A model generated the notes under the pieces. It did not search any database. It was not told the origin of the DNA and worked only from the letters and a program-made list of their open reading frames with translations. Both the position numbers and the translations under genes were made by a program. A stretch of 22,078 nucleotides of DNA from a virus: the IMG/VR virus record IMGVR_UViG_3300002180_000016, positions 32,305 through 54,382 of that record; one strand, given 5' to 3'. Below are positions 4,560 to 21,961 of the stretch, piece after piece (the stretch's first letter is position 1; each line of letters starts with the position of its first letter).

Positions 4560-5237
4560 TGTGCTCTCCTGGTTTGCCTGATCACGGCATTCCGCACAAT
4601 CAGTACAGCCAGCATCGCAATCAGAGTTGGTTTGAACAGGTGCACTTTGGCGAACGTTATTCAATCGTGGAATCCCACAACCGTCTTCGATGGAACATGC
4701 ACCAATAGTTCCTGCTGATAATAAAGCAAGGTGGTCTGGTGAAATTGATCTCCAGATACCCTCATACGTATCACTATTGAAACGCCCATTCTGCTGGTCT
4801 ACAGATGCATACAACCCGGTTGAAACTTCAACAAGTCCGCCATTTTCAATGCTTGAAAGGATTTCCTGAATTTCACCACCCGCAGAATTAATTTTACCAA
4901 CATCCAGCCAGGCCTCAGTCTTGAGCTTTGAATCTTCAACTCGGGTGTTAAACAGTAAGCCATAGGACCATTCCTCTAAAATTTCAGGTTGGCCTGCACT
5001 TACAAATGAGCCGTTAACTTTAGGATGATTCATAACAACTGGTCGACCGTTCCAGCCTTGAGGATGTTTACCAAATTCCGCAGCAAGCGCCAATTCGGGG
5101 TGTTCAGAGTTGGCACTGTGGAGTACACCTTCGACGATGGCAACGAGTGGAACGATACGATGTTCCAACCCATTATAAGTCCCCGTTCTTATTGATGATG
5201 TGTCTGCAGTAGTAAGTACGTTAAACATCTGACGCAT
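3741..5237 (-). CDS. Prohead protease (DUF2213-like) with C-terminal scaffold region
   Basis: A 498-aa protein. Residues ~15-190 match the DUF2213 type prohead protease: EHRIVPLVAIVEGVLH, then GWNGRPVVMNHP (the likely catalytic His), then GGLVEVSTGLYA (likely Ser) and SISPDHLALL. Residues ~183-223 hold eight cysteines, including CDAGCTDCAEC, a possible metal site. From ~225 on the protein is acidic and Ala-rich and ends in helices with SVEAYLNSAPAEIRESLTAG and LANERNTFPEEML, as in scaffolding proteins removed during maturation. The ATG at 5237 has AGGA about 9 bases upstream; a second ATG at 5228 is possible. The gene has its own promoter at 5272-5300. An internal start likely gives a separate scaffold (next entry). 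Confidence 0.8.
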   Translation of the reverse strand: MRQMFNVLTTADTSSIRTGTYNGLEHRIVPLVAIVEGVLHSANSEHPELALAAEFGKHPQGWNGRPVVMNHPKVNGSFVSAGQPEILEEWSYGLLFNTRVEDSKLKTEAWLDVGKINSAGGEIQEILSSIENGGLVEVSTGLYASVDQQNGRFNSDTYEGIWRSISPDHLALLSAGTIGACSIEDGCGIPRLNNVRQSAPVQTNSDCDAGCTDCAECRDQANQESTMDTPEQEQLRIDKRAALLTELCDGLFTNEVPSDLPVDSVRSLLLSALTERYPEDLYTIHTFTTGQVVFELWSTMDKFALNYSIANDKAALDEGEPTKINIINRIVAALDGSDANTEAADAAQTSEEDTIMDNENATDGAPTGVEAEVEDAAIVTDPIVADPAIAEPAANAAPISVEAYLNSAPAEIRESLTAGLKLHAERKASLVGKLLANERNTFPEEMLNSFDIEMLERVSTLANIPTFEGAAPVSPSVNAVDSQAAPIAAQAFPLTLVE

Positions 5238-5700: not shown

Positions 5701-8370
5701 CTATATCCAATTCTCTTTAATTTCATCGTCAAGATAGTTTATCTCGACTTCATCTTTAGTATATTGCGTATGCACCTTATCATCGAGGTAGTTAACAAGA
5801 CGCTTATGAGTAGTATCTTCAGTTACAAAGGGTTTACGTGTTGGGGTGAATATTGCATCACTAATTGCATTAGATGCATATACACGTACACCTGATAGAG
5901 TAGTTTCAAAAGTTAGAGCCGATACTGAGGTACTGGACCATAATGGCGATGCACGTTTACTACGTACTAGGGATAGAGTAGATAGACTTCCAGATGTGAA
6001 TGTCGTGGATGAACGTTTGGATGCTACCAGCGTAATGGCTGAAACGGACTCACTTGAGAATGCTGCAGTTAAACTTGATCCAGGATTAAATACTGCCGTA
6101 GAAGTCGACACACTTGAGAATCGTCCTACAGCACGTAGGGTGGTTATCAATGTGACTTGGGACTGATCAGCACTTAAGAATGACCCATTTGCACGTTTGG
6201 ATGCGAGTAATGCTATTGTCGAAGTGGCTGAGGCACTAAAGGTACGTTGAGATGTGACTGCAGCCAGGGCACCGTTAAAAGTAGCTACCGAAGCTGATGT
6301 CGAAGTGAATACACCTTTAGCCGTTAAGGTGGGTACGAGTTGAGTTGTGCTTGTAGATGAGCTGCTGAATACTGCAAACTTGGAGCCACTAGTGACAAAG
6401 GACGCTGTCGATGCTGCCGTGGCATTAAATATTGCTACGCCATGCTTAGTGGGTGTAAATGCTGTGGTGGATGTGGATGCACTACTAAATGTAGGAGATG
6501 CACGTTTAGATACCAGCATGGCAGTTGTGGAAACTGACGCGCTACTGAATATCGAGGTGGAACGTTTAGATGCCAACAGTGCCAGTGTAGATGTGGCTAC
6601 TGACAGATAGGCTCGGCCGATCGTTGCTGTTGGGGCTGCGGTTAAAGTGCCCGTAGATACGCTGGAGAACTGACGCTGTGCATTGATAGACGCCAACCTA
6701 GCAGTAAAATCAGCCGTAGATGCTGAGGTACTCGCGAATTGAGCTGCGCCTCGTTTAGAATGTGCGAGTGTTAGGGTGCTTGTAGATACACTGTCAAATA
6801 CTGAAGTAGAACGTTTAGAGGTCAACAATGTAGTGGTCGACGTGTCGGTAGATGTAAATTGAGTAGTGCTTCGTTTAGTAGCCGGGAGAATTAATACTGA
6901 AACTGCCGCACTTGAAAAGAGGGTGTTGGAACGTTTGGATGTCAGGAGTGTTAGGGTGCTCACAGATGCACTATTGAATAGTGCAGTGGAGCGTTTAGTA
7001 GTCAGGAGTGCTAAGCTAGAGACTGATGGGCTATTGAATAGTGCTGGCGAACGTTTGGTACTAATAAATTGTGTAGAGGAAACCGAATTGGCTGCAAATG
7101 CGGCAGCACCACTTGTTCGAGGAACAAATTGTGTAACTGATGCACTAACTGAAGCGAAGGTGGCTTTGGTACGTTTAGAGCTAACGAATTGTGCTGCCGA
7201 ACTTGATGCAGACAAGAATATGGGAGACACACGTTTAGTAGTTAAAAACGTAGTAGTAGATACACTTGCGGATACGTATGCAGCGGAACTACGCTTGACG
7301 GCTAGGAGTGCTAAGACGCTCGTTGATGCTGATAAATACGTACGTTGAGAAGTAGAGCCCTCAGCTTCCTCAGACACACTAAACTCGGCCCAGCTAACTT
7401 GAGCCCTAGCCAGTAATGAAGGATTTAAGTATATTGAACTTGTAGATGCAGCTAAGAAGACCGCATTCTCGGCACCACCTACTAGTAACCCATTGAATAC
7501 TGCACCAGACGTAGATGTAGATGCGAATACTGCAGCACCACGCTTAGTCGATACAAATGTGGTCGATGACCCCGATGTGGATGTGAACGTTGCCTTACCT
7601 AATTTAGAGGCTATCAATGCCGTAGCCGATGTAGAGGAACTTAGGAAGGCGGTCAGAATCTTTCTAGAGTTGATGGCAGCCATTGAAGATGTACTAGTAG
7701 CTACAAATGCCGCCTTAGCTCTCTTGGAAGTTGAGAGTACGGTAGTTGATGCGCCGGCTGAAGCAAATATTGGGGATGCACGCTTAGTGGTCAGGAGTGC
7801 TGCAGTTGATACACTAGCAGAGGTAAACGTACGTTGGGTAGTAGTTCCTGCAGCAGTGTATGTCCCATCAATGTCTACGCCGAATAATTGAAGATTGGCG
7901 TTATCTGGCCCTGCTGTCTTAGAGTAGGTCCAAGTGAACCGAATATAAGCGGAGTTCCATTGAGTTGCTGTACCCGTCAGACCTGAGAATGTAACATTTC
8001 TCTGCACTCGTGTACTATCTGCGTGGCTACCAAGATTACCAGTTTCGTTCGTCAGAGGATTTGTCGTATCATTATTAGCATCATAGATACGTGCAGTTAA
8101 GGTACATGTATCATTCGAGAAACCCACAGCTTGGATATCTACATCAATATTGAGCGTATCCATGCTATCAAAATCAGCATTTACATTTGATAGACTGAAC
8201 CACGCAGCACCTGATGTTTCAGAATTATCATTAGCTACCCAATCCGAACTGGCTCCATTAGGTGCATCATTGGCATGTGTATAGAATGGTGTACCCGTAC
8301 CGGCATCATGGAAGATGTCGGCATCGATTAAACCATCAGCATCAAGGAGGAGTTGTGTTAAGGTTGCCAT
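5701..8370 (-). CDS. Large repetitive fibre protein (~32 x 20-residue repeats)
   Basis: An 889-aa protein. Residues 1-~175 form a non-repetitive, beta-rich head (DTLNIDVDIQAVGFS, then CTLTARIYDANN and FSGLTGTATQWNSAYIRFTW) resembling a carbohydrate-binding or jelly-roll domain. Residues ~178-845 are about 32 degenerate 20-residue repeats, consensus aromatic-x-S-x-S-x-S-T-x-x-L-x-x-S/T-K-R-x4. The last ~45 residues are charged, with two NYLDD motifs. The repeats are Ser/Thr-rich with regularly spaced hydrophobic and KR positions, suggesting a beta-solenoid or fibrous shaft. No chaperone or peptidase domain is visible. The ATG at 8370 overlaps the TAA of the LamG gene (TAATG). Probably a virion adhesin or fibre; not identified by homology. 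Confidence 0.7.
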   Translation of the reverse strand: MATLTQLLLDADGLIDADIFHDAGTGTPFYTHANDAPNGASSDWVANDNSETSGAAWFSLSNVNADFDSMDTLNIDVDIQAVGFSNDTCTLTARIYDANNDTTNPLTNETGNLGSHADSTRVQRNVTFSGLTGTATQWNSAYIRFTWTYSKTAGPDNANLQLFGVDIDGTYTAAGTTTQRTFTSASVSTAALLTTKRASPIFASAGASTTVLSTSKRAKAAFVATSTSSMAAINSRKILTAFLSSSTSATALIASKLGKATFTSTSGSSTTFVSTKRGAAVFASTSTSGAVFNGLLVGGAENAVFLAASTSSIYLNPSLLARAQVSWAEFSVSEEAEGSTSQRTYLSASTSVLALLAVKRSSAAYVSASVSTTTFLTTKRVSPIFLSASSSAAQFVSSKRTKATFASVSASVTQFVPRTSGAAAFAANSVSSTQFISTKRSPALFNSPSVSSLALLTTKRSTALFNSASVSTLTLLTSKRSNTLFSSAAVSVLILPATKRSTTQFTSTDTSTTTLLTSKRSTSVFDSVSTSTLTLAHSKRGAAQFASTSASTADFTARLASINAQRQFSSVSTGTLTAAPTATIGRAYLSVATSTLALLASKRSTSIFSSASVSTTAMLVSKRASPTFSSASTSTTAFTPTKHGVAIFNATAASTASFVTSGSKFAVFSSSSTSTTQLVPTLTAKGVFTSTSASVATFNGALAAVTSQRTFSASATSTIALLASKRANGSFLSADQSQVTLITTLRAVGRFSSVSTSTAVFNPGSSLTAAFSSESVSAITLVASKRSSTTFTSGSLSTLSLVRSKRASPLWSSTSVSALTFETTLSGVRVYASNAISDAIFTPTRKPFVTEDTTHKRLVNYLDDKVHTQYTKDEVEINYLDDEIKENWI
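5836..7836 (-). repeat. Degenerate ~60-bp tandem coding repeat, four blocks
   Basis: Within the fibre gene, units of about 60 bp encode the 20-residue repeats. A variant unit starting with Q-R-(T/Q)-(F/Y) recurs near 7830, 7345, 6678 and 6243, cutting the array into four blocks of about 7, 11, 7 and 7 units (counted by eye). The repeat keeps several antisense frames open; these are artefacts. AAACGT or its near variants (Lys-Arg codons) recur with the period on the coding strand. Confidence 0.8.
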
Positions 8371-11300: not shown

Positions 11301-11912
11301 TTCACTGTTATATGAACTCAAAACCTGTTTAATTTTATAGGCAAGTGTAGCTGTGGAACTGGTAAGGTACCCTACACCATTTTCGTACATACGTAGATCA
11401 CTGCTAGAAACTCCGCCACCACTTGAAGTTACGACCTTACTAGCAAATTGGCTGAAATTTGCAATGTTGGTCTCGTTATAGCTACTGCTGCTAAATGCCT
11501 CCAATCTCAGATAAGAGCCGGGACGCTCCCACAGGTTGGTGTCAGTCTCGGACCTATCACCCGCAATCATACTGCCGTTAGCGAGGTCTTCTTGTTGGCT
11601 ACGCCACGCAATAGACCATGGATCAGTATTCAAGTAATCTATTCGGGGCTCAACTTCCAGATAGCCGTTAGGGGTATCTGTCTTATAGAGTACCTCACGA
11701 CCTTTGAATATCTGGCCGACTCCATTATCATCTACCCACGATAAACTGTGACGCCCAGTTAAATCAATTTGAGCACCGTTATTTCTGAAAAGTATTCCCA
11801 GTCTAAGTTTTCGTGCCAACGGGTGGGACATGTCCAAGGCCACGGGGCCGGTAGGTTTAACTCCGGCTCTGTGATCTGGGTGCAGATATTTAGGTAGCGT
11901 CAGGAGCGTCAT
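8370..11912 (-). CDS. Multi-domain LamG/concanavalin-like phage surface protein
   Basis: A 1180-aa protein with four related units at residues ~5-246, 262-514, 525-780 and 886-1132. Each opens with LPK-x-x-HPDF/H and (A/V)-x-D-x-S-(N/H)-(P/K), and closes with EL-(T/S)-x-x-E followed by DPYQ(L/I/V)(L/F)KP. Between are beta strands typical of LamG (concanavalin A-like) folds, which bind glycans. Units 1 and 4 are most alike (DPWSIAWRSQ / DPWTVAWRSQ; SSSDLRMY / SSSDIRMY). Residues ~786-882 (LYLRPDADDTDGGWT...) and 1137-1180 (IIASWTHTSIS..., ITDYDDLFLELEA) look like two halves of one other domain, split by unit 4. Likely a receptor- or glycan-binding virion protein. The start at ATG 11912 has AAGGGGG upstream. 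Confidence 0.75.
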   Translation of the reverse strand: MTLLTLPKYLHPDHRAGVKPTGPVALDMSHPLARKLRLGILFRNNGAQIDLTGRHSLSWVDDNGVGQIFKGREVLYKTDTPNGYLEVEPRIDYLNTDPWSIAWRSQQEDLANGSMIAGDRSETDTNLWERPGSYLRLEAFSSSSYNETNIANFSQFASKVVTSSGGGVSSSDLRMYENGVGYLTSSTATLAYKIKQVLSSYNSEGYNYEGWLDYVYIFDSELTPAEAKSLHVDPYQLLKPAIPMHTFISTPILDVVTTTYPLELPKRLHPDFAIRGRQPTGAVAIDWSNPLTKGLLFFQSGDRNYVDGTRAKRIDATGAREIGDNARVIASNNSSDAGWVFEAPSVIGLGGSNEFTFGGKFSLPSNVIDRGVMSVPATRSSYIAPYASVYLYQQVSDLFTIGYNAAGTYQKREFTTPAFSNTTYRSIILTRKDGFSSIFEDGVLKETDTIISGDVGAVTVPAVCLFSIDENRNGAEGRSEWSAIWSRELTALEIKAISDDPYQILKPIVPMPMFISDVVTSTYPIELPKRAHPDFVPKKHPITSIEIDRSNKFGRHIVEAIIPRGGALVSFKPDPSPMRRIGTSTGYGVRAGKFYGLGSAVNYWERSGIIKAKNALTFMCRQKWNGSLTPNNGANSVMIADTNQSVWGTSGCHFNIKRNDAQTNVFVGTGTTAMSGISVDVSDGNWHDVAATMTQGDPGAIYVDSIEVSSYGSQPNMTFTESTTGRTRVGYYYDDQNAHTLDSDVGYVFILDKELSASEVRELHADPYQVFKPAVPAVAFAQVSASATLYLRPDADDTDGGWTRDTGSNIDLYSAIDEVTASDVDYIQSESSPTADKCKVSLSNPGGTVNTESAHRLKYRYKRSNTSQAIDLTARLVQGSGGFTMTELPKSLHPDFSELDRKPVGKVVLDMSNPLAQKLKLCCLFDGQRKIVDYTGNHQISLYPAAGIAEIHEGRQTLLCVTNMWSSISPGMDFSMNDPWTVAWRSQASTANDGRICGTASEESNNYLWERNAAYLSFSGNLTSAEHVTETNITDFESGMDHKAISSSGEGTSSSDIRMYQGKNAYLSGTGISTDWYLDTLFQGGINGTYAYRGWFDYFYVFNAELTQAEIDSLQRNPYQVFKPAAPMMVPTSTTAIIASWTHTSISDSYTDAIQTLTAPQIASITDYDDLFLELEANVP

Positions 11913-11921
11913 GATGCCCCC

Positions 11922-12494
11922 TTATGCGGCTGGCCCGTGGGTCATTGGCGTCATGGTAATGTGGGTCTCATCCATGGCGGTGTGCATAGATGCAGTCGAG
12001 TTATTCTCGATCACAAGAATACCGTATCTGTGATCGGGGATAATGATGCCCACATGGCCGATGTTGATCGTTGCTGCACGTAAAATAAGGGAGCCAACGT
12101 ATTGCAATTGACCCAGCAAGCCATCTGTTTCAGTTACGTCGGCATCGGTACCAGTCAATGATCCGGGGTTACCCGTTGCGGCCGTTGCCGAGGGAGAACC
12201 GCCCCAGTAGAAATCGACTGTCTCACCATCTACAGGGGTAGCGGCATGTTCAAGACATGCATCAACTCGATACCAAGGCGCACGTGCAGCCCCAAGATCA
12301 GCTGTCTTTGTAGACTCTCGCGACCCCCCAGATGCAGCCAAACTAGTCAGATCCATCTGAACACCTGTAGGTGTGCCAATGATGATACTGTTTGCTGCAG
12401 TCGTGGGAGGACCTGCACCCGCAGTTGGAAAGTCAGTTACATCACGGAACATCAATTGAGTTCCATTAATTAGGAGTGTGGTTTCGTTCGCCAT
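11922..12494 (-). CDS. Conserved phage structural-type protein, unknown role
   Basis: A 190-aa protein beginning MANETTLLINGTQLMFRDVT. It is rich in Ala, Gly and Thr, with a beta-like profile (SIIIGTPTGVQMDLTSLAAS, then APWYRVDACLEHAATPVDGE, a VDFYWGGSPSA strand, and GILVIENNSTASMHTAMDE). It overlaps the upstream gene at TAATG 12494 and is followed 9 bp later by the LamG gene. The W-G-G-S-P-S segment and the run of adjacent virion genes recall small structural proteins seen near adhesin genes in aquatic siphophages. I cannot name a domain. Probably a virion or baseplate-associated protein, by position. Confidence 0.55.
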   Translation of the reverse strand: MANETTLLINGTQLMFRDVTDFPTAGAGPPTTAANSIIIGTPTGVQMDLTSLAASGGSRESTKTADLGAARAPWYRVDACLEHAATPVDGETVDFYWGGSPSATAATGNPGSLTGTDADVTETDGLLGQLQYVGSLILRAATINIGHVGIIIPDHRYGILVIENNSTASMHTAMDETHITMTPMTHGPAA

Positions 12495-12910
12495 TAGATT
12501 TCACCTCGTGCTTTTTTGACGTGGCTGGATGTGATCAAGCCTGAATACTGAAGTTCATTTGCGATCTCAGTGGCGCGACTGATCGTTTCAGAACGTAAGG
12601 TGTTAAGATTGGAAACAGTTGCGCCGGATGTGAACACATCAACTACGAACAGTTGTGCCAACCCATCAACTTCAGGATTGTGTTCGTTAATTGCACAAAA
12701 TGCCAACCATTGTGACTTTTTGGTGTCGGATAGTAGAGTATATTGCCCTGCATCAGTCGCTGCCCATATTTCAGCACCTGTCATACTTGATTTAATGCGG
12801 CTAATATCCAGTGCGTTCATTTGATCCGCTGCAAGCTGGGCGTCTACATCATATGCGCCTGATACAGGATGCGCCTGAGCCAGTTCCGCGGTTAGTGTAG
12901 CATAATTCAT
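12494..12910 (-). CDS. Conserved phage protein of unknown function
   Basis: A 138-aa mostly helical protein. It contains AQAHPVSGAYDVDAQLAADQ, then MTGAEIWAATDAGQYTLLSD, then KKSQWLAFCAINEHNPEVDG and a C-terminal ETISRATEIANELQYSGLIT. The sequence order (HPV-G-Y, helix, M-G-E-I-W/F-A-A-T-D, L-x-D-x-K-K-x-x-W-L-x-F-C, ..S-R-A-x-E-L/I) is a pattern I have met repeatedly in structural clusters of aquatic phages, without a known role. The ribosome binding site AAGGGA sits inside the end of the winged-helix gene; the stop overlaps the next ATG (TAATG). It could be a minor virion or assembly factor. Confidence 0.6.
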   Translation of the reverse strand: MNYATLTAELAQAHPVSGAYDVDAQLAADQMNALDISRIKSSMTGAEIWAATDAGQYTLLSDTKKSQWLAFCAINEHNPEVDGLAQLFVVDVFTSGATVSNLNTLRSETISRATEIANELQYSGLITSSHVKKARGEI

Positions 12911-12911
12911 G

Positions 12912-13238
12912 TTATAATTCCCTTTCGATAATCTTTACATCACCTCTGAAGACGTATCCGATCCCTTTACATGCTTCTATACATTCAAACGATCCGAATT
13001 TCTTCTCACACTTACGTCTAATTCGTTTGATGCAACTATCAACGCACCTATCGTTTGGATTAGCTGCCTCACCCCAAGCTGCATCAATTATTTGATTACG
13101 TGTTTTGATGAACTCGGGATGCCGCATTAAACATTTTAGAATATTGCCTTCTTTTGATGTCAGCATGACACTTAGATCCCCTAACCATAACTTATACGTG
13201 TTAAAGCATAAGCGGTACTCGGAGACCGAGGATGGCAT
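12912..13238 (-). CDS. Stand-alone OmpR/PhoB-type winged-helix DNA-binding protein
   Basis: A 108-aa protein consisting of one Trans_reg_C (OmpR/PhoB-type) winged helix and no receiver domain. Recognisable parts: an N-terminal beta sheet (YRLCFNTYKLWLGDLSVML), LTSKEGNILKCLMRHP (helix 1), KTRNQIIDAAWG (helix 2), RCVDSCIKRIRRKCEKKFG (recognition helix) and IEACKGIGYVF (wing hairpin with the signature G-x-G-Y-x-F). These are the family's diagnostic positions (LT..E..LL..L, R..L...VWG, R.VD..I.RLRRK, I.TV.G.GY.F). It lies among virion genes and is translationally coupled to its upstream neighbour (TAATG at 13238). It may regulate late phage or host promoters. It has five cysteines, unusual for this fold. 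Confidence 0.85.
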   Translation of the reverse strand: MPSSVSEYRLCFNTYKLWLGDLSVMLTSKEGNILKCLMRHPEFIKTRNQIIDAAWGEAANPNDRCVDSCIKRIRRKCEKKFGSFECIEACKGIGYVFRGDVKIIEREL

Positions 13239-13621
13239 TAGGTCAGAGTAACATCGATATCGCCGATTGCGAACTCAAGTGTATCGCCATCATTGATGGT
13301 TACAGTTGTGAAGCCATCCCATGCCAACATATTACCTACAGTGCTAGCATCAAAGATTGCGCCTGCGAGAACATCACCATAGTTACCCCCTGAAGCAGTG
13401 AATGAGACGAGACCAGTGTTTGCAATCGCCCCACCGGAGCTTGCCCCAAATGTGATTGCTTGACGTGCATATCCGCCCGTTGCAACCTCAGTACCTCCAC
13501 CAGCATCACTGGGGGTGACTGTGAACAGTGCCATATAGACCGTAGTGATGGCTGTAAATGTTTGATTACGAAATACGAAATCAAGAACTTTATCTTCGAG
13601 GTAGTCCGTGAAAGATGACAT
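13238..13621 (-). CDS. Small virion/tail-fibre-like protein
   Basis: A 127-aa product from ATG 13621, chosen because GGAG lies 7 bases upstream; the same frame reaches TTG 13633 but that codon is the ribosome binding site region itself. Sequence: MSSFTDYLEDKVLDFVFRNQ, then YMALFTVTPSDAGGGTEVAT followed by GGYARQAITF, and a C-terminal MLAWDGFTTVTINDGDTLEF. The Y-(M/V)-ALF-T..P.DAG.GTEV..GGYARQ motif is a known repeated signature of small phage structural proteins often annotated as tail-fibre or head proteins. It is the first gene after the promoter at 13667-13695 and starts the adhesin segment. Confidence 0.65.
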   Translation of the reverse strand: MSSFTDYLEDKVLDFVFRNQTFTAITTVYMALFTVTPSDAGGGTEVATGGYARQAITFGASSGGAIANTGLVSFTASGGNYGDVLAGAIFDASTVGNMLAWDGFTTVTINDGDTLEFAIGDIDVTLT

Positions 13622-13666
13622 GGCTTGCTCCAACTAGTGGGTTAAATTCGATGGGTCCTTACTAAT

Positions 13667-13695
13667 ATTATAGTGACTTCAAGGGGAAGTATCAA
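13667..13695 (-). promoter_or_regulatory. Sigma70-like promoter for the adhesin segment
   Basis: On the minus strand TTGATA (13695-13690), a 17-bp spacer and TATAAT (13672-13667) precede the gene at 13621 by 45 bases. It shares the 12-mer TTAACCAGTTGA with the promoter at 5272-5300, and the pattern CAGTTG, 6 bp, CCCCTTGAA (13698-13678) with the terminase promoter (17912-17892). Confidence 0.7.
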
Positions 13696-13699
13696 CTGG

Positions 13700-13948
13700 T
13701 TAACTGATTAAATTGTTGACTATTAGTATTGTAATTCCGCCTAAAGTGGTTGCTAGCCAGTCTGAGACATCTACGATACCCCTACCTAAGGCATCACGAA
13801 CTTCCTTAAGTGCCCCTACCAGACTAGCTGCAATGACACCCCAAGCTGTATCATGTATATCGTAAAAGATATCGGGCAATATTAGAGTAACTATTGCTGA
13901 TATAATTAGGCCTGCAATAAAGTGACCTATAAGATCAGGACGTATCAT
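13700..13948 (-). CDS. Small membrane protein, possible holin
   Basis: An 82-aa protein with hydrophobic segments at about residues 7-27 (IGHFIAGLIISAIVTLIL), 36-46 and 63-80 (LATTLGGITILIVNNLI). The spacing of H..AG near the N-terminus, GALKEVRDALG in the middle and D-W-LATTLGG near the end resembles small YfiM/VanZ-like membrane proteins that occur in phage lysis or late regions. It is translationally coupled to the portal gene (TAATG at 13948). A holin role is a guess based on size, membrane segments and phage context; no endolysin is present in the window to support it. Confidence 0.55.
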   Translation of the reverse strand: MIRPDLIGHFIAGLIISAIVTLILPDIFYDIHDTAWGVIAASLVGALKEVRDALGRGIVDVSDWLATTLGGITILIVNNLIS

Positions 13949-15297
13949 TATACAATCTCCTCCTCAATTATGGTTTCGTCGGTTACAGTAGCTGGCGTAT
14001 CTGTGGGCATAGTATCAGCTACCTCATTGAACATTGGAATTGATCCCGCAGATTCAATAATCTGACGCCCCTCCTCTAATGAAACGACTGGAACTTCAGA
14101 CGACAACGCCTTACTTACATTTGCCAGAGATCTAGCCTGCTGAGCTGATGTCATGGAACGTTCTAGAGGTGATTGACGGAATGCTTCAGGCCAGACCCAA
14201 GAGAGGGCAGTAGGTGCAGGTAGCACACCTAGACCTACAAGTTTCTTAACGAGAGGATTTAACATAATCGGTTCAACGAATGTTGAGCGTCTAGATTCGA
14301 CACGGGATGCCCAATTAGCCCTGTCCTGCGCTGACGCCAATTGCCCAGCTTCAGATCCAAGCAAAATGCGTTGAGGAATACCAGTCGCTCCAGCTAGTAG
14401 TGCAGTTAATACCCCAAATACACCTCGCGGATCAGCCATATCGGAACCCAATGTATTTATCTCTACACCTTTTGTACGCATAAATCTACGCATGCCATGA
14501 ATATACTCATCAACTTCATCAGACAGGGCCTCAGCATCTTCCTCAGTAAGCGTCATATCCTTATCAACATCCAGCTGCATACCACGATTAGCTGTCATCC
14601 AGAAAGTTTCAGCCGAGCCTCCGGCAATCTTCTCAATATCCTGTAGCAAGTTGTAAACACGTGCAATACGGGGAGATCCAAAAAGATCATTATCCAAAGT
14701 ATTCTCAGCTACATGCAAAATACGTGAATGATGCACTTCGTAAGTTTTAGAAATTCCCTGAGCGCGTGTAACATTTCCGAGATCCTCCCCACCAACATTG
14801 ATCTCATACATTGTAGGCATACCAAAACGTTCAGAAAGAACATTCTCCTCATATTTTGTAATGGTAACGTTTCCTGCACCATGTGCACGTAGGAAAGTTA
14901 CACTTAAACCATTTTCAAATTGAGCTGGCTCTTTTAAATTCAGTCCATCACTGAGCCCGATTACTAATACGCCGAACTCACCTAGACCAATCATGCGATC
15001 AAGTTGCTCCATACGTAAGTGCAGGCTGTGGCGTGCAATTAAATCCGACCACTTTTCCGCAAACACTTCATCACCTTCGGGTACTGGGGGGAGGGACCAG
15101 ATTGCACGAGGCTCAGAATCCACAACACGTGATGCAATATCCTGACGTTTCCATCTATTAAGGGCCATTTTATACGTTACGCGAAATTCATAGCCAAATG
15201 CAGCATAAACATCCCGATTTCCGCTAAATGTTGTACCTAAAAGGCCGTTAAAAGCCCTTAAACGTGCGAGTAAGTCAGCTTGATCAGTCATTTTCAT
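13948..15297 (-). CDS. Portal protein (DUF1073-like)
   Basis: A 449-aa protein matching the DUF1073 portal group: GNRDVYAAFGYEFRVTYKMA, then WKRQDIASRVVDSEPRAIW, MIGLGEFGVLVIGLSDG, the wing and crown region with HHSRILHVAEN and FGSPRIARVYNLLQDIEKI, the helix with LTEEDAEALSDEVDEY, and ATGIPQRILLGSEAGQLASA. It forms the dodecameric channel at the capsid vertex and docks the terminase. It overlaps the terminase gene by 14 bp. ATG 15297 has GAGG only 4 bases upstream; the in-frame ATG at 15291 has better spacing and may be the real start (447 aa). The C-terminal tail is rich in Asp, Glu, Thr and Ile. Confidence 0.85.
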   Translation of the reverse strand: MKMTDQADLLARLRAFNGLLGTTFSGNRDVYAAFGYEFRVTYKMALNRWKRQDIASRVVDSEPRAIWSLPPVPEGDEVFAEKWSDLIARHSLHLRMEQLDRMIGLGEFGVLVIGLSDGLNLKEPAQFENGLSVTFLRAHGAGNVTITKYEENVLSERFGMPTMYEINVGGEDLGNVTRAQGISKTYEVHHSRILHVAENTLDNDLFGSPRIARVYNLLQDIEKIAGGSAETFWMTANRGMQLDVDKDMTLTEEDAEALSDEVDEYIHGMRRFMRTKGVEINTLGSDMADPRGVFGVLTALLAGATGIPQRILLGSEAGQLASAQDRANWASRVESRRSTFVEPIMLNPLVKKLVGLGVLPAPTALSWVWPEAFRQSPLERSMTSAQQARSLANVSKALSSEVPVVSLEEGRQIIESAGSIPMFNEVADTMPTDTPATVTDETIIEEEIV

Positions 15298-16948
15298 TAT
15301 CCTCTATAATGATAGCGTCCTCAACTTCAGGATGAGCATTCATCTGTGAAGGACGCACATATTTAGCAATTTCAGGTGAATTTAGCCCTGGAACGCGTGT
15401 AATTCCTTGACCACTACGACGTCTACCCCATGTAGACCCCTGAATAGCCTTAGAATGGTGACTTTTACCCTTTTCTTGGACATCTTTATTCGCTAAAGCC
15501 TTCTTCCTACGTCCCCAAGTAGCAGATACTGCCTTATCACCCAGCAACGTATTATAACCGATTGAGCAGACATCTATCTGATCATCATTTATTCCGTCAG
15601 GAAAGTCTTCAAACTCATCTAAAAATTCCTTATTCCATGACCGATTGAGGATGTGAACCTTACCGGATTCTGCCGCGGCTAGGAATGGTTGTGCCCTAAT
15701 TACTTTGGAAGTAGTAGTAGGTGAGCCTGTTACCTTATAATCCGGTAACACATTATCGCGATAGTGTTCATATACCTGTTTACCTGAAGCCCCAGGTTCC
15801 TGCTCAAGAATAACTTCGACATCCGTACCATCAGTCTCAGCTTTCAGGGCTACGTTAGCCTCAATTGTGTGTGGGGATACTTGACGGCGAAACATATCAA
15901 TGATATAACAATGACGTGTTTTCATATCAACAGCAATCAAGCCTGACACCGTATAATCACCACCACCCTTAGTTCCAGCAAAATCCCAGATACGTGCGTA
16001 TTTAAGACGATTATGTGTGGGTACAATATCAACAATATCAATCCAGGTACGATCTGTTAGCTGATTGTCATCATCTACTGGACGTTGCTGATAAATGGCA
16101 TTATAGTAGAATGTTCCGATAACACGCTTAATATCACGTAATGCAGGAACATCATAACGCTCGGGAAACAATGGTTCACCTATTTCACGATTTAAAACGT
16201 CATCTTTCTCTGCAGTTGCAGTGAACTCAATATGTTTCCATTCGGGGAACTCACGTTTAATCCGTCCAATAAGGTCTTGAGTATGCCATCTTGTAGCAAT
16301 GATGATCAAGGATGCCCCAGGTTCAAGTCTATGATATGCAGTACCAGTAAACCACTCCCAATGCTTCTCATGGGTCTTCATATTACGAGCTTCTTCCATC
16401 GTCTTAATATAGTCATCGATAAGCATCACGTCGGCACCCTTACCAGTGATACCTCCTCCGAGACCTACATTCAGCATGCCTCCACCTTTGGTAGTCATAA
16501 AACGTCCTACAGACTTAACATCTGCACGGATACGTTCTTTAAGAATGTGGTGATTACGGTTCATGATATCACGAACTTCACGTCCAAAGTCAGTTGATAG
16601 ATCAGAACCATACGTAGCTAGAATGATATTCTTGTGAGGGAAATTCTCAAGACACCAGATAGGTGTTGCGATCGTAGCTAATCGCGACTTACCATGACGT
16701 GGAGGCCAGGAGATAATTAAACGTCCTCCAGGTTTTGCAATACACTTGGCAATCTCCATAGATGCATACAATAGAAACTCTTTGGGAATCCATTGGGGAT
16801 CTAATCTTGTATAGAGTGTTGCAGGAGTCAATCTGAAGTTATTAACCAAATCATCAACTGACGCAGTTTTATTAGTGAATGAACTTGACAGATCAGGTTT
16901 AGGTAATTTCTTACCATGTAAATGATATTGACTAAGATTAGGACTCAT
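15284..16948 (-). CDS. terL: Terminase large subunit (TerL)
   Basis: A 554-aa packaging motor. ATPase domain: Walker A at residues 81-88 (WPPRHGKS), adenine/TYGSDLS region ~111-118, Walker B VMLIDDY at 174-180, and the coupling motif IIIATRWH at 215-222. Nuclease domain: WDFAG with D322, LEQEPGASGK with E382, and DDQIDV with D456/D459, the expected acidic triad. Its C-terminal ~80 residues are basic and probably contact portal or DNA. It overlaps the 301-aa gene upstream by 11 bp and the portal downstream by 14 bp. All key motifs look intact, so the enzyme is expected to be active. Confidence 0.95.
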   Translation of the reverse strand: MSPNLSQYHLHGKKLPKPDLSSSFTNKTASVDDLVNNFRLTPATLYTRLDPQWIPKEFLLYASMEIAKCIAKPGGRLIISWPPRHGKSRLATIATPIWCLENFPHKNIILATYGSDLSTDFGREVRDIMNRNHHILKERIRADVKSVGRFMTTKGGGMLNVGLGGGITGKGADVMLIDDYIKTMEEARNMKTHEKHWEWFTGTAYHRLEPGASLIIIATRWHTQDLIGRIKREFPEWKHIEFTATAEKDDVLNREIGEPLFPERYDVPALRDIKRVIGTFYYNAIYQQRPVDDDNQLTDRTWIDIVDIVPTHNRLKYARIWDFAGTKGGGDYTVSGLIAVDMKTRHCYIIDMFRRQVSPHTIEANVALKAETDGTDVEVILEQEPGASGKQVYEHYRDNVLPDYKVTGSPTTTSKVIRAQPFLAAAESGKVHILNRSWNKEFLDEFEDFPDGINDDQIDVCSIGYNTLLGDKAVSATWGRRKKALANKDVQEKGKSHHSKAIQGSTWGRRRSGQGITRVPGLNSPEIAKYVRPSQMNAHPEVEDAIIIEDNEND

Positions 16949-17843
16949 TAGGAGTTTCCCTAGCTTGAATAATCAGTCGTTGGGCAATTTCCGCAGTCTC
17001 AGGATCATTCAAAAGCATATCAATGGAGATCTTAGACTCAGTACCCCCACTCAATAGTGAATTACGTCCCGCGGCTACCAATGTTTTCATCAAGACGTCA
17101 GTATCAGCATTCTCAGGACCCTCCTTCTTCAAGTTCTCACCACCTCCAACGGGCAGTCCCAGACTAATACGTTGGATCTTATTGAGAACCTCCATATACT
17201 TGATAGCTACGGCAGGCGTTAATTCCTCAATCCACCTTAAGTTATTTGGGTCTTCATCACCTGGCAGCTGATAGTATACATCCAAACCTTTAAACAACTG
17301 TTCAGCTTTAAGGAAAGACTGCTCATTAGAGCTGAGAATCCTACGCTCACGCATCTTAGAATGGGCGGCAATATTGAACATGTCAAACGCCTTTGAGCGG
17401 GCCGACCAGGAGTAGTAGAGGTATCCCTGTTGAAGATCATGTAACGAGAGCTTTGACGTTTCTATCGCTGCAATCTGTCTGATAGGGAACGTGGTGATCT
17501 GCTGAAGGTATTCTTGAAAGGCGTCATACATCATTGCGGGCTCAGATTCCATCTGTGACCAGATAGTTGAGCCATCTGCAAATGCTGGAAAACCTTCATC
17601 GTATGTGATTTCGATCATGGCATGATTCAGGATCTCTACTTGATCTTGATGGGTTTGCTCAAAGAAGTCCTCACTTATGTATGTGGGTGTGTAGAGATAT
17701 TGAGGTAGATCATAATCATTCTTGGGAATATCATCCCTTAGGATCTTAAAGACTTCCATACGTGGAGATAGGGATACCTTAGCAATTTCGGAAGGTTTGG
17801 AATAAGGCAGCTCAAAGTAATCTTGTTGTGCGTTGGCATTCAT
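16938..17843 (-). CDS. Protein upstream of terminase, possible small terminase subunit
   Basis: A 301-aa protein from ATG 17843 with AGGAGA 6 bases upstream. The middle is helical (DAFQEYLQQITTFPIRQIA; LSLHDLQQGYLYYSWSARSK; SSNEQSFLKAEQLFKGLDVY). The C-terminal third has KKEGPENADTDVLMKTLVAA and DMLLNDPETAEIAQRLIIQA. I see no clear helix-turn-helix at the N-terminus and the length exceeds most small terminases. The assignment rests on position: first gene of the late block, directly before and overlapping terL by 11 bp. It could equally be another packaging or head accessory factor. Confidence 0.5.
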   Translation of the reverse strand: MNANAQQDYFELPYSKPSEIAKVSLSPRMEVFKILRDDIPKNDYDLPQYLYTPTYISEDFFEQTHQDQVEILNHAMIEITYDEGFPAFADGSTIWSQMESEPAMMYDAFQEYLQQITTFPIRQIAAIETSKLSLHDLQQGYLYYSWSARSKAFDMFNIAAHSKMRERRILSSNEQSFLKAEQLFKGLDVYYQLPGDEDPNNLRWIEELTPAVAIKYMEVLNKIQRISLGLPVGGGENLKKEGPENADTDVLMKTLVAAGRNSLLSGGTESKISIDMLLNDPETAEIAQRLIIQARETPNES

Positions 17844-18095: not shown

Positions 18096-18214
18096 TATAA
18101 GATAATAAATTAAAGTTGAAAAATAAAATTAATTATATTATATTAAATTATAAGATAAAAATAAAAAAATAAATAAAAAAATAAATCTTATCTTATAAAT
18201 ACATCGTAAGATAA
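18096..18214. repeat. TAAGATAA motif cluster
   Basis: TAAGATAA occurs near 18098, 18151 and 18207 on the plus strand, and in inverted form (CTTATCTTAT) near 18187-18196, around the early promoter. Repeats in both orientations flanking a promoter suggest operator sites. AT-richness makes chance copies more likely, so this is tentative. Confidence 0.4.
18116..18144 (+). promoter_or_regulatory. Rightward early promoter candidate
   Basis: TTGAAA (18116-18121), a 17-bp spacer and TATATT (18139-18144). The tract is so AT-rich that several alternative -10 elements exist, including nearer ones around 18190-18220. It lacks the CCWGGGTG box seen at the other three rightward promoters. Confidence 0.4.
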
Positions 18215-18254
18215 TAATATTTTACGGTTAACTCGTATCTTGAAAGGATACAAC

Positions 18255-18479
18255 ATGTCTACTTCTAAAAATGAAAATACTACACAAACTACTCTAACAG
18301 ATAAATATACCTACGACGAGTTAATATTAGAGACTAAATCTAAATCGGCGATGATTAGAAGGTTATATTCTGAAGGTTACAAGAAAGGTGAGATAGCTAA
18401 ATTTATGAATATAATCTATCAGTTCGTGTATAACGTAATAGCTAACGATGAACTGAAAAAGAAAGCTGCGACTAAGTAA
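18255..18479 (+). CDS. Small helix-turn-helix protein, paralogue A
   Basis: A 74-aa protein from ATG 18255, with AAAGGA 6 bases upstream. Its C-terminal half (KSKSAMIRRLYSEGYKKGEI, then AKFMNIIYQFVYNVIANDEL) is a short helix-turn-helix related to the gene at 20816-21061; about half of the residues over 43 positions are identical by eye. The N-terminus differs (STSKNENTTQTTLTDKYT). Where the paralogue and the general form of this helix have R-Y-Q-H-V-R-N-V, this copy has I-Y-Q-F-V-Y-N-V, losing the basic residues expected to touch DNA. It is visibly more AT-rich than its paralogue. It is the first gene of the rightward block, next to TAAGATAA sites. A regulator or antagonist role is inferred. 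Confidence 0.75.
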   Translation: MSTSKNENTTQTTLTDKYTYDELILETKSKSAMIRRLYSEGYKKGEIAKFMNIIYQFVYNVIANDELKKKAATK

Positions 18480-19091: not shown

Positions 19092-19200
19092 GGGTCCTCC
19101 ATTCTTGGGTATCGGGCGATCCTAGTGACCAGGGCTATTGACCTAGTTGTTGCGACCTACCTTGTGACCCAGTTCCCGGAAGACCAAAAATAATTTAGAA

Positions 19201-19247
19201 CCAGGGTGAAAATAAATATTGATTGTATTAATAAAATAATATATAAT
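19201..19247 (+). promoter_or_regulatory. Early promoter with upstream CCAGGGTG box
   Basis: CCAGGGTG (19201-19208), 10 bp, TTGATT (19219-19224), 17 bp, TATAAT (19242-19247). The 15-mer CCAGGGTGAAAATAA recurs exactly at the promoter before 20816. The ATG of the next gene lies about 110 bases downstream, giving a long leader. Confidence 0.65.
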
Positions 19248-19308
19248 AAATTTAATAATAATAAAAAAATAAAATACATACTAAAAAATAAATACTAAAT
19301 ACCAACTA

Positions 19309-19343
19309 CCAACTACTAACCAACTAACTAACTAACCAACCAA
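19309..19343 (+). repeat. CTAAC/CAAC repeat tract sharing a 16-mer with the origin-like region
   Basis: The leader of the 68-aa gene holds short tandem ACCAACT and CTAA units. TAACTAACTAACCAAC (19325-19340) is an exact copy of 21688-21703 in the repeat-rich right end. Confidence 0.6.
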
Positions 19344-19360
19344 TCTAGAAAGGACATACA

Positions 19361-19567
19361 ATGTCACATACTGAAACAGTCGCCCGCTTCGCTCAACTAT
19401 TTACTGACAACCAAGATCTTGGCGCCGAGATCAACATGCTAGTACGTACAGAGCTGGGCCTTGAACCAGATACTGACGTGGACGACAATGCTGAATACTG
19501 GGCCATGTACACCAAGTTAATGGTCGAATTTATCAACAGCGTCGCTACGTACGTAGATTCCAAGTAA
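19361..19567 (+). CDS. Small acidic early protein, 68 aa, unknown
   Basis: A 68-aa protein from ATG 19361 with AAAGGA 7 bases upstream; the leader ATCTAGAAAGGA resembles those of the two helix-turn-helix genes. MSHTETVARFAQLFTDNQDL is followed by an acidic linker (LGLEPDTDVDDNAEYWAMYT) and a hydrophobic C-terminal helix (KLMVEFINSVATYVDSK). It is acidic overall; small acidic phage early proteins often bind and inhibit host enzymes or mimic DNA, but no specific match is visible. It forms its own unit: promoter upstream, UUCG hairpin downstream. Confidence 0.7.
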   Translation: MSHTETVARFAQLFTDNQDLGAEINMLVRTELGLEPDTDVDDNAEYWAMYTKLMVEFINSVATYVDSK

Positions 19568-20815: not shown

Positions 20816-21061
20816 ATGTCTACTAAGAAAACAAACACTGCACCTGTCGCAAAAACCGAAGAAGTCAAAGTTGCACTTCCGGGTGATACGTACGAGCTGT
20901 CGGCCCTGATGAAAGAGCTGGTCACCAAATCTGCAGTGATCCGTAAACTGTCGGCCGAAGGTTTTACACGAGCTGACATCTCACGGTTCATGGGTATCCG
21001 GTACCAGCATGTCCGTAACGTCCTGGTTAACGATGCACTAAAAGCTGCCACAGAAAAGTAG
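20816..21061 (+). CDS. Small helix-turn-helix protein, paralogue B
   Basis: An 81-aa protein from ATG 20816 with AAAGGA upstream. N-terminal Lys/Thr/Ala-rich tail (STKKTNTAPVAKTEEVKV), then a compact helical domain: LVTKSAVIRKLSAEGFTRAD followed by ISRFMGIRYQHVRNVLVNDA. The E-G-x-(T/S)-x-A-x-I-(A/S)-x-x-x-G-I-R-Y-Q-H-V-R-N-V form is a familiar small DNA-binding helix-turn-helix, with R-Y-Q-H-V-R as the presumed recognition helix. Leader and first codons (TCTTGAAAGGAT..., ATGTCTACT) match paralogue A at 18255. It has its own promoter and shares its transcript with the 27-aa peptide. Probably a DNA-binding regulator of phage promoters. Confidence 0.8.
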   Translation: MSTKKTNTAPVAKTEEVKVALPGDTYELSALMKELVTKSAVIRKLSAEGFTRADISRFMGIRYQHVRNVLVNDALKAATEK

Positions 21062-21378: not shown

Positions 21379-21771
21379 CACAGCCACGTCAGATTCACTA
21401 TCATTCATTCCGTAGAAGTACACTCCATATCACAACACAACAAGTTCGTTGGAAAACCCGGTGGTTTAACTAGTTGATTTCTAACAATAAATTGTGAAAC
21501 TACTGGGGATTCTCATACGTCATTCAATACTCACACAGATTTTATCTAATGTTTTCAACAAGTTAACCTAAATTGGCAGAAACCGTTGGTTAGTTGGTTA
21601 ATTTTATACTATATATATACAAATATTTTCTATATATTTTAATACCTTTTTTTATTCATCCACTTCTTTTTTATTATATATTAGATATAACTAACTAACC
21701 AACGAAACTAATATTATCTATATATTTCAATAAGTTAACCTACACCTTTATCGCGCCAATCCCGGTGGTTA

Positions 21772-21922
21772 CAGGATATTCCCGGGGGTTAATTTGACAG
21801 TATGAATGTTTTTCTTGACAACGTGTTCTAAAAACAATTCAAAACTTGTCGACTCCTCCACATTTTTTGCGGGAAGAAAACGTTGGTTTTCAGGATATTC
21901 CCGGGGGTTAATTTGACAGTAT
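21772..21922 (+). repeat. Two exact 32-bp direct repeats
   Basis: 21772-21803 and 21891-21922 are identical over 32 bp, from CAGGATATTCCCGGGG through GTTAATTTGACAGTAT, spaced 119 bp. Each contains a TTGACA hexamer and follows a GGTGGTT/GTTGGTT word. No -10 is visible at good spacing, so they look like binding sites rather than promoters. Confidence 0.85.
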
Positions 21923-21952
21923 ATAAATTAACCAACGGTTTCTCCCTTACAA

Positions 21953-21961
21953 TTATCCACA
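21953..21961 (+). promoter_or_regulatory. DnaA box
   Basis: TTATCCACA matches the consensus high-affinity DnaA box (TTATNCACA) exactly and lies immediately beside the iteron-like repeats. Confidence 0.6.

Follow-up and report, generated by a model that had tools for sequence, protein, structure and literature searches.

A palindromic element with paired IHF-like sites as a candidate replication origin in a family of siphophages

In the origins of SaPI elements, repeats flank an AT-rich core on both sides. SaPI initiators have helicase activity, and in phage P4 the initiating helicase and primase are fused in one viral protein (PMC7145576). The iteron plasmid origins pSC101 and R6K gamma are facilitated by IHF alongside a replicon-specific initiator, and in phage lambda ori the inverted-repeat initiator sites adjoin an AT-rich region (PMC5043065). 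At Escherichia coli oriC, IHF bends DNA beside the AT-rich DUE (PMC10380432).

Very few lytic phages have mapped origins. We describe here a non-coding element which, with a probability of roughly 0.77, serves as replication origin in a family of siphophages that appear to be lytic. Comparison of about 15 phages narrows the likely origin of each down to about 250 bp; two of these phages, MaInes and StAshley, are isolates on the laboratory host Brevundimonas pondensis LVF1.

The candidate region and its genomic setting

The window, i.e. the whole stretch of 22,078 nucleotides analysed, comprises bases 32305-54382 of the 54,382-bp virus record IMGVR_UViG_3300002180_000016. This record has no end repeats and represents an incomplete phage genome; judged against MaInes, it is short of about 13 kb, and the stretch holding the primase-helicase gene is missing. 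The late genes (terminase, portal, capsid, tail) are on the minus strand in the window, a block of small plus-strand genes lies at 18.2-21.1 kb, and a plus-strand replication module occupies the record's first 19 kb. Members of this module are a ligase, a SNF2-type helicase, a PD-(D/E)XK exonuclease, a Sak4-like ATPase, QueC/D/E and FolE, a family-A DNA polymerase, a ribonucleotide reductase and a deaminase. Because the candidate region stands at the right end of an incomplete record, 117 bp before the last base, its flanking replication genes are out of view. The features are, in window coordinates:

15284-16948, minus strand: terminase large subunit, anchor for locating the same place in relatives
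16938-17843, minus strand: conserved 301-aa gene upstream of terminase; the two together span 15284-17843 as the anchor
20816-21061, plus strand: small helix-turn-helix (HTH) protein, 81 aa, of a family with several copies near the putative origin in relatives
21454-21961, no strand assigned: whole candidate origin region, non-coding, 31.7% GC
21465-21480, plus strand: IHF-like site a, reverse complement AAATCAACTAGTTAAA, 0 mismatches to WATCAANNNNTTR
21552-21567, minus strand: IHF-like site b, TTTTCAACAAGTTAAC, 1 mismatch; second-best in 54 kb with a relatives-only profile
21583-21592, 21762-21771, 21782-21791 and 21901-21910, plus strand, and 21929-21938, minus strand: iteron-like CCSKKGGTTA copies, specific to this phage
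21584-21600, plus strand: left inner arm CGTTGGTTAGTTGGTTA, tetranucleotide-phased
21598-21683 (genome 53902-53987), plus strand: AT-rich core, putative unwinding element, 86 nt with zero G
21688-21704, minus strand: right inner arm TAACTAACTAACCAACG, 16/17 complementary to the left arm, hairpin z -4.1
21724-21739, minus strand: IHF-like site c, ATTTCAATAAGTTAAC, 1 mismatch; best in 54 kb with the relatives-only profile
21772-21803, plus strand: 32-bp direct repeat CAGGATATTCCCGGGGGTTAATTTGACAGTAT, copy 1, exact
21891-21922, plus strand: 32-bp direct repeat CAGGATATTCCCGGGGGTTAATTTGACAGTAT, copy 2, exact
21953-21961, plus strand: DnaA box TTATCCACA, perfect, one copy, without conservation among relatives

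The initial annotation had described about 510 non-coding bases with repeats in both orientations, an AT-rich core between near-perfect 17-bp inverted repeats, two exact 32-bp direct repeats and a perfect DnaA box. All of these are present, the DnaA box being the weakest item. No convincing ORF overlaps the region (there is one 52-aa GTG ORF on the minus strand). The repeat AAACCGTTGGTTA occurs exactly once per strand (21580 plus, 21929 minus), and the related 10-mer CCSKKGGTTA is found five times in the 22-kb window, always inside the region, with 0.22 occurrences expected; the region's repeats are thus far above chance. The core between the 17-bp arms has 12% GC; the AT core proper was delimited anew as 21598-21683. 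All 15 phages have a core rich in pyrimidines on one and the same strand with respect to terminase, and the inner arms are phased alike (TTAG/TTAC) in the related loci L096, L084, L083, L239 and L245. A search of Rfam gave no match.

The G-free tract was considered as a unique mark of the element and rejected: a longer one exists at 19226-19347, so such a tract is not diagnostic by itself. An AT-rich leader at 19187-19347, ahead of the gene at 19361, bears CTAACCAACTAACTAACTAACCAACCAA, a word with tetranucleotide phasing that also makes up the inner arms. Another non-coding leader (18096-18240, 92% AT) precedes the first small HTH gene; it has AAGATAA/TTATCTT inverted repeats and includes the 110-nt stretch with the highest AT content in the record.

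The HTH proteins form a very small family (motif IRYQHVRNVL) with two or three members in each phage, encoded on the segment from terminase to the putative origin: 18255-18479 and 20816-21061 in the window, 14654, 15746 and 18394 in L037, and 6197, 7237 and 7968 in L089. Relatives were found by tblastn within terminase-anchored loci, and patterns of the protein gave no confirmed match in IMG/VR. Members of this family are candidates for repeat-binding regulators, and the protein at 20816-21061 might bind the phage-specific repeats. Elsewhere in the window, a stand-alone OmpR-type winged-helix output domain (Trans_reg_C) lies amid tail and structural genes (12912-13238), and an 889-aa protein (5701-8370) with about 40 degenerate repeats (xSxSTxxLxxxKRSxxxFxSxS) is possibly a fibre-like tail protein.

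The element in related phages

DNA-level searches with the window and the region in phage records and DNA collections found no near relative; weak matches to Acinetobacter phages were discarded as AT-rich chance alignments. At the protein level, the Brevundimonas phages MaInes and StAshley are related (terminase 39-41%, capsid 45%) and have the structural gene order and the replication/7-deazaguanine module in common with our record. Both were isolated as plaque-forming siphoviruses (PMC10070969). Dozens of IMG/VR contigs are also related, the closest terminase being about 60% identical.

In these relatives, a long imperfect palindrome occupies the gap that lies upstream of terminase and the neighbouring genes. 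It is built of an AT core rich in pyrimidines, of inverted repeats next to the core and of paired IHF-consensus sites in the arms. This architecture recurs in about 15 distantly related phages at the corresponding genomic position. Convergent site pairs 167-218 bp apart were found at 10 family loci, and 1.28 Mb of reversed sequence contained none. The site profile itself had served to locate some of the held-out loci; L239 and L245 were recognized by their sites and inner arms. A search for long inverted repeats, blind to the sites, recovered most of the same elements and in addition those of L096, L079 and L230, with two sites each. In 7 of 10 phages tested, no other inverted repeat of the locus is as strong as the element, the exceptions including L116, where it is weak, and our own copy. 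The latter is irregular: its site spacing is 259 instead of 167-218, its third site is reversed, and its long-palindrome score of 22.5 stays under the 99th percentile (23.0) for the record as a whole. AT peaks picked by eye in L102 and L079 turned out to be leaders of HTH genes, the true elements being given by the unbiased inverted-repeat scan.

The individual sites conserved between phages are the 16-mers at 21465, 21552 and 21724, which the initial annotation did not name. With the relatives-only profile, site a ranks fourth in the 54-kb record; conversely, a profile trained on our own window only has its top match within the element of L084, L116 and MaInes. The 27 sites from 15 phages, read in the other direction, give WWWTCAANNAGTTARC, with TCAA in 27 of 27 and TTA in 25-27. 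Compared with the IHF consensus WATCAANNNNTTR, as given in PMC10380432, 16 sites have no mismatch and 11 have one; the exact consensus occurs five times in the whole 54-kb record, once in the element. The Brevundimonas hosts of the relatives are proteobacteria. Judged by consensus match, the 16-mers are probably IHF sites, and another bending or dyad-binding protein with a similar site is conceivable. IHF is probably the architectural partner at the putative origin.

A scan of IMG/VR for AACTNGTTGATTTNNAACAA gave 57 matches, mostly outside the near-relatives and consistent with chance or coding repeats. The 154-kb contig L167, with an RCC1-like gene, has about nine copies of TAACTYGTTGAWTTTAAAC within 1 kb, in both orientations (1530-2520); it is apparently unrelated and perhaps eukaryote-virus-like. 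In L174, a phage contig with RecA-like and DnaB-like helicase genes, similar sites (AACCYRYTGATATTAC, AAATCAACAAGTTAGT) cluster in the non-coding gap after the helicase gene (5000-5230).

Origin function and its alternatives

The initial annotation had associated an origin with a GC-skew minimum and with neighbouring Rep or ParA/B genes. The former was found within 1.6 kb of the element in the two complete, circular relatives. In MaInes, the minimum of the detrended cumulative skew is at 15,066 and the element at 16,499-16,692 (1.4 kb apart); in StAshley they are at 50,829 and 49,203-49,397 (1.4-1.6 kb apart). The skew maximum of both genomes is where the two gene arms converge. In our own record the minimum lies at the contig end beside the element and is partly forced by detrending a fragment, and L102 and L089 have a local minimum away from it. 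GC skew is confounded by gene direction throughout: the third-position skew of plus-strand genes is -0.05 left of the element and +0.20 right of it, that of left-arm minus-strand genes is -0.06 (coding strand), and the two effects do not separate cleanly.

As to the neighbouring genes, the replication module of the relatives begins on the far side of the element. ParA, ParB, a Rep_3 initiator and integrase were all missing from ten records, including two complete genomes, in searches where positive controls were detected; the same ten records contain no DnaB-type helicase. What is conserved is a protein of about 800 aa with a DUF3854 segment, encoded about 3-15 kb downstream of the element and kept in 8 of 10 records and, over a wider set, at 32 loci. 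A PDB profile search with it returned no sequence match, whereas a fold search with its AlphaFold model (pLDDT 88) matched poxvirus D5/E5, ASFV PrimPol, NrS-1 and the SaPI5 primase-helicase (7ola). It is thus predicted to be a D5/SF3 primase-helicase. In L002, the DNA polymerase ORF (11849-14311) starts with a uracil-DNA-glycosylase-like domain fused to the family-A polymerase.

The recurrent architecture and position, the strand-biased core, the nearby skew minima of two relatives and the adjoining replication module together argue that the element is an origin, as had been suggested for our region. It would be the main origin, bidirectional and of theta type. The primase-helicase, for which we consider the role of origin-opening initiator an even bet, would assemble on repeats of the palindrome arms, and IHF would bend DNA at the paired sites so that the arms are brought together. 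The AT-rich core would then melt with exposure of the pyrimidine strand, the helicase would load and prime there, and forks would depart to the right (replication genes, plus strand) and to the left (late genes, minus strand). More tentatively, such elements might form a class of phage origins not described before, in which IHF bends a long palindrome built around a pyrimidine strand poor in G, and a TOPRIM/D5 primase-helicase opens it independently of DnaA. The class would be common to the whole family of 7-deazaguanine-synthesising siphophages, with repeats drifting between phages as initiator specificity co-evolves with the arms.

The alternative that survives best, though we consider it unlikely, is that early-gene operators and promoters occupy the region instead of an origin. 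TTGACA lies within both 32-bp repeats, sigma-70-like sequences were seen by eye to the right of the element in L072, L089 and L116, small HTH proteins are encoded close by, and IHF acts in transcription as well. Promoter-like sites in the window's region are, however, not commoner than in shuffles, and promoters need no long palindrome around an 80-120-nt G-poor core; moreover, the flanking genes are co-directional in several phages and skew minima are located at the element. A regulatory role may hold in addition, because origins can contain promoters.

Lambda cos contains IHF sites, and the element might be a packaging site (cos or pac), recognized by terminase with the help of IHF, so that the genome would end close to the terminase genes. 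Of the near-complete contigs, four (54-67 kb) do end 71-705 bp from the palindrome: 336 bp from a site in our own record (window 22078), 705 bp in L072 (stretch 1-706), 114 bp in L083 (1-115) and 71 bp in L230 (1-72). Either assemblies break there, as a long palindrome can itself cause, or some physical event takes place there. These ends are found on both sides of the element, however, and at differing distances; the circular records of MaInes and StAshley continue through it, as do contigs L084, L089 and L116; and about 4.5 kb of sequence with unrelated small genes separates it from terL, all of which makes a packaging site very improbable.

The initial annotation had likened the region to plasmid or phage-plasmid origins and raised DnaA-dependent replication and a plasmid-like state. 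The likeness stands as far as the perfect DnaA box, iteron-like repeats and AT core of the window are concerned, and TTATTCACA lies near the L089 element. Ties to DnaA and to plasmids are not supported. The 54-kb record has no second DnaA box, but 23% of shuffles also yield one copy per 22 kb, and the lone box is not above chance; among 15 phages, 2 have boxes in the element where about 1.75 would be expected, which speaks against DnaA dependence as a conserved property. Among plasmid records, none had a place covering 80% of the terminase query. A phage-plasmid whose AT core is opened by host DnaA, with a Rep protein, and which may persist as a plasmid is therefore the least credible of all readings, given also the ten records free of partition, Rep_3 and integrase genes, the phages' own primase-helicase and the failure to find close plasmid relatives; a DnaA-type or plasmid-type origin is not supported, nothing tying the element to either.

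With the likely origin and likely initiator pinned and two of the phages isolated, the pair is directly testable, and the drifting repeats present a natural series for the evolution of initiator specificity.

Comparison with described origins

If the element is an origin, it differs from E. coli oriC in having no DnaA-box array, two mirrored IHF-like sites and a strand-biased G-poor core. It shares with lambda ori the inverted repeats next to an AT-rich stretch; lambda ori, however, is within the initiator gene O and uses host DnaB, whereas the present element is non-coding and no DnaB-type helicase was found in the records searched. An AT-rich unwinding region, repeats and IHF-like sites are common to it and to pSC101 and R6K gamma; contrary to these, it has no Rep_3 initiator and no conserved DnaA box, its layout is inverted instead of direct, and it is accompanied by a phage replisome.

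The P4 alpha and SaPI replicons are approached through the predicted primase-helicase, whose model matches the SaPI5 enzyme. The differences are that homology is undetectable at the sequence level, that the primase part is here a TOPRIM-like DUF3854, that the palindrome is mirrored and carries IHF-like sites, and that 3-15 kb separate the putative origin from the gene, the phage being complete and independent of a helper. The element thus resembles both IHF-assisted iteron origins and P4/SaPI replicons in principle, being, by the tests made, a member of neither.
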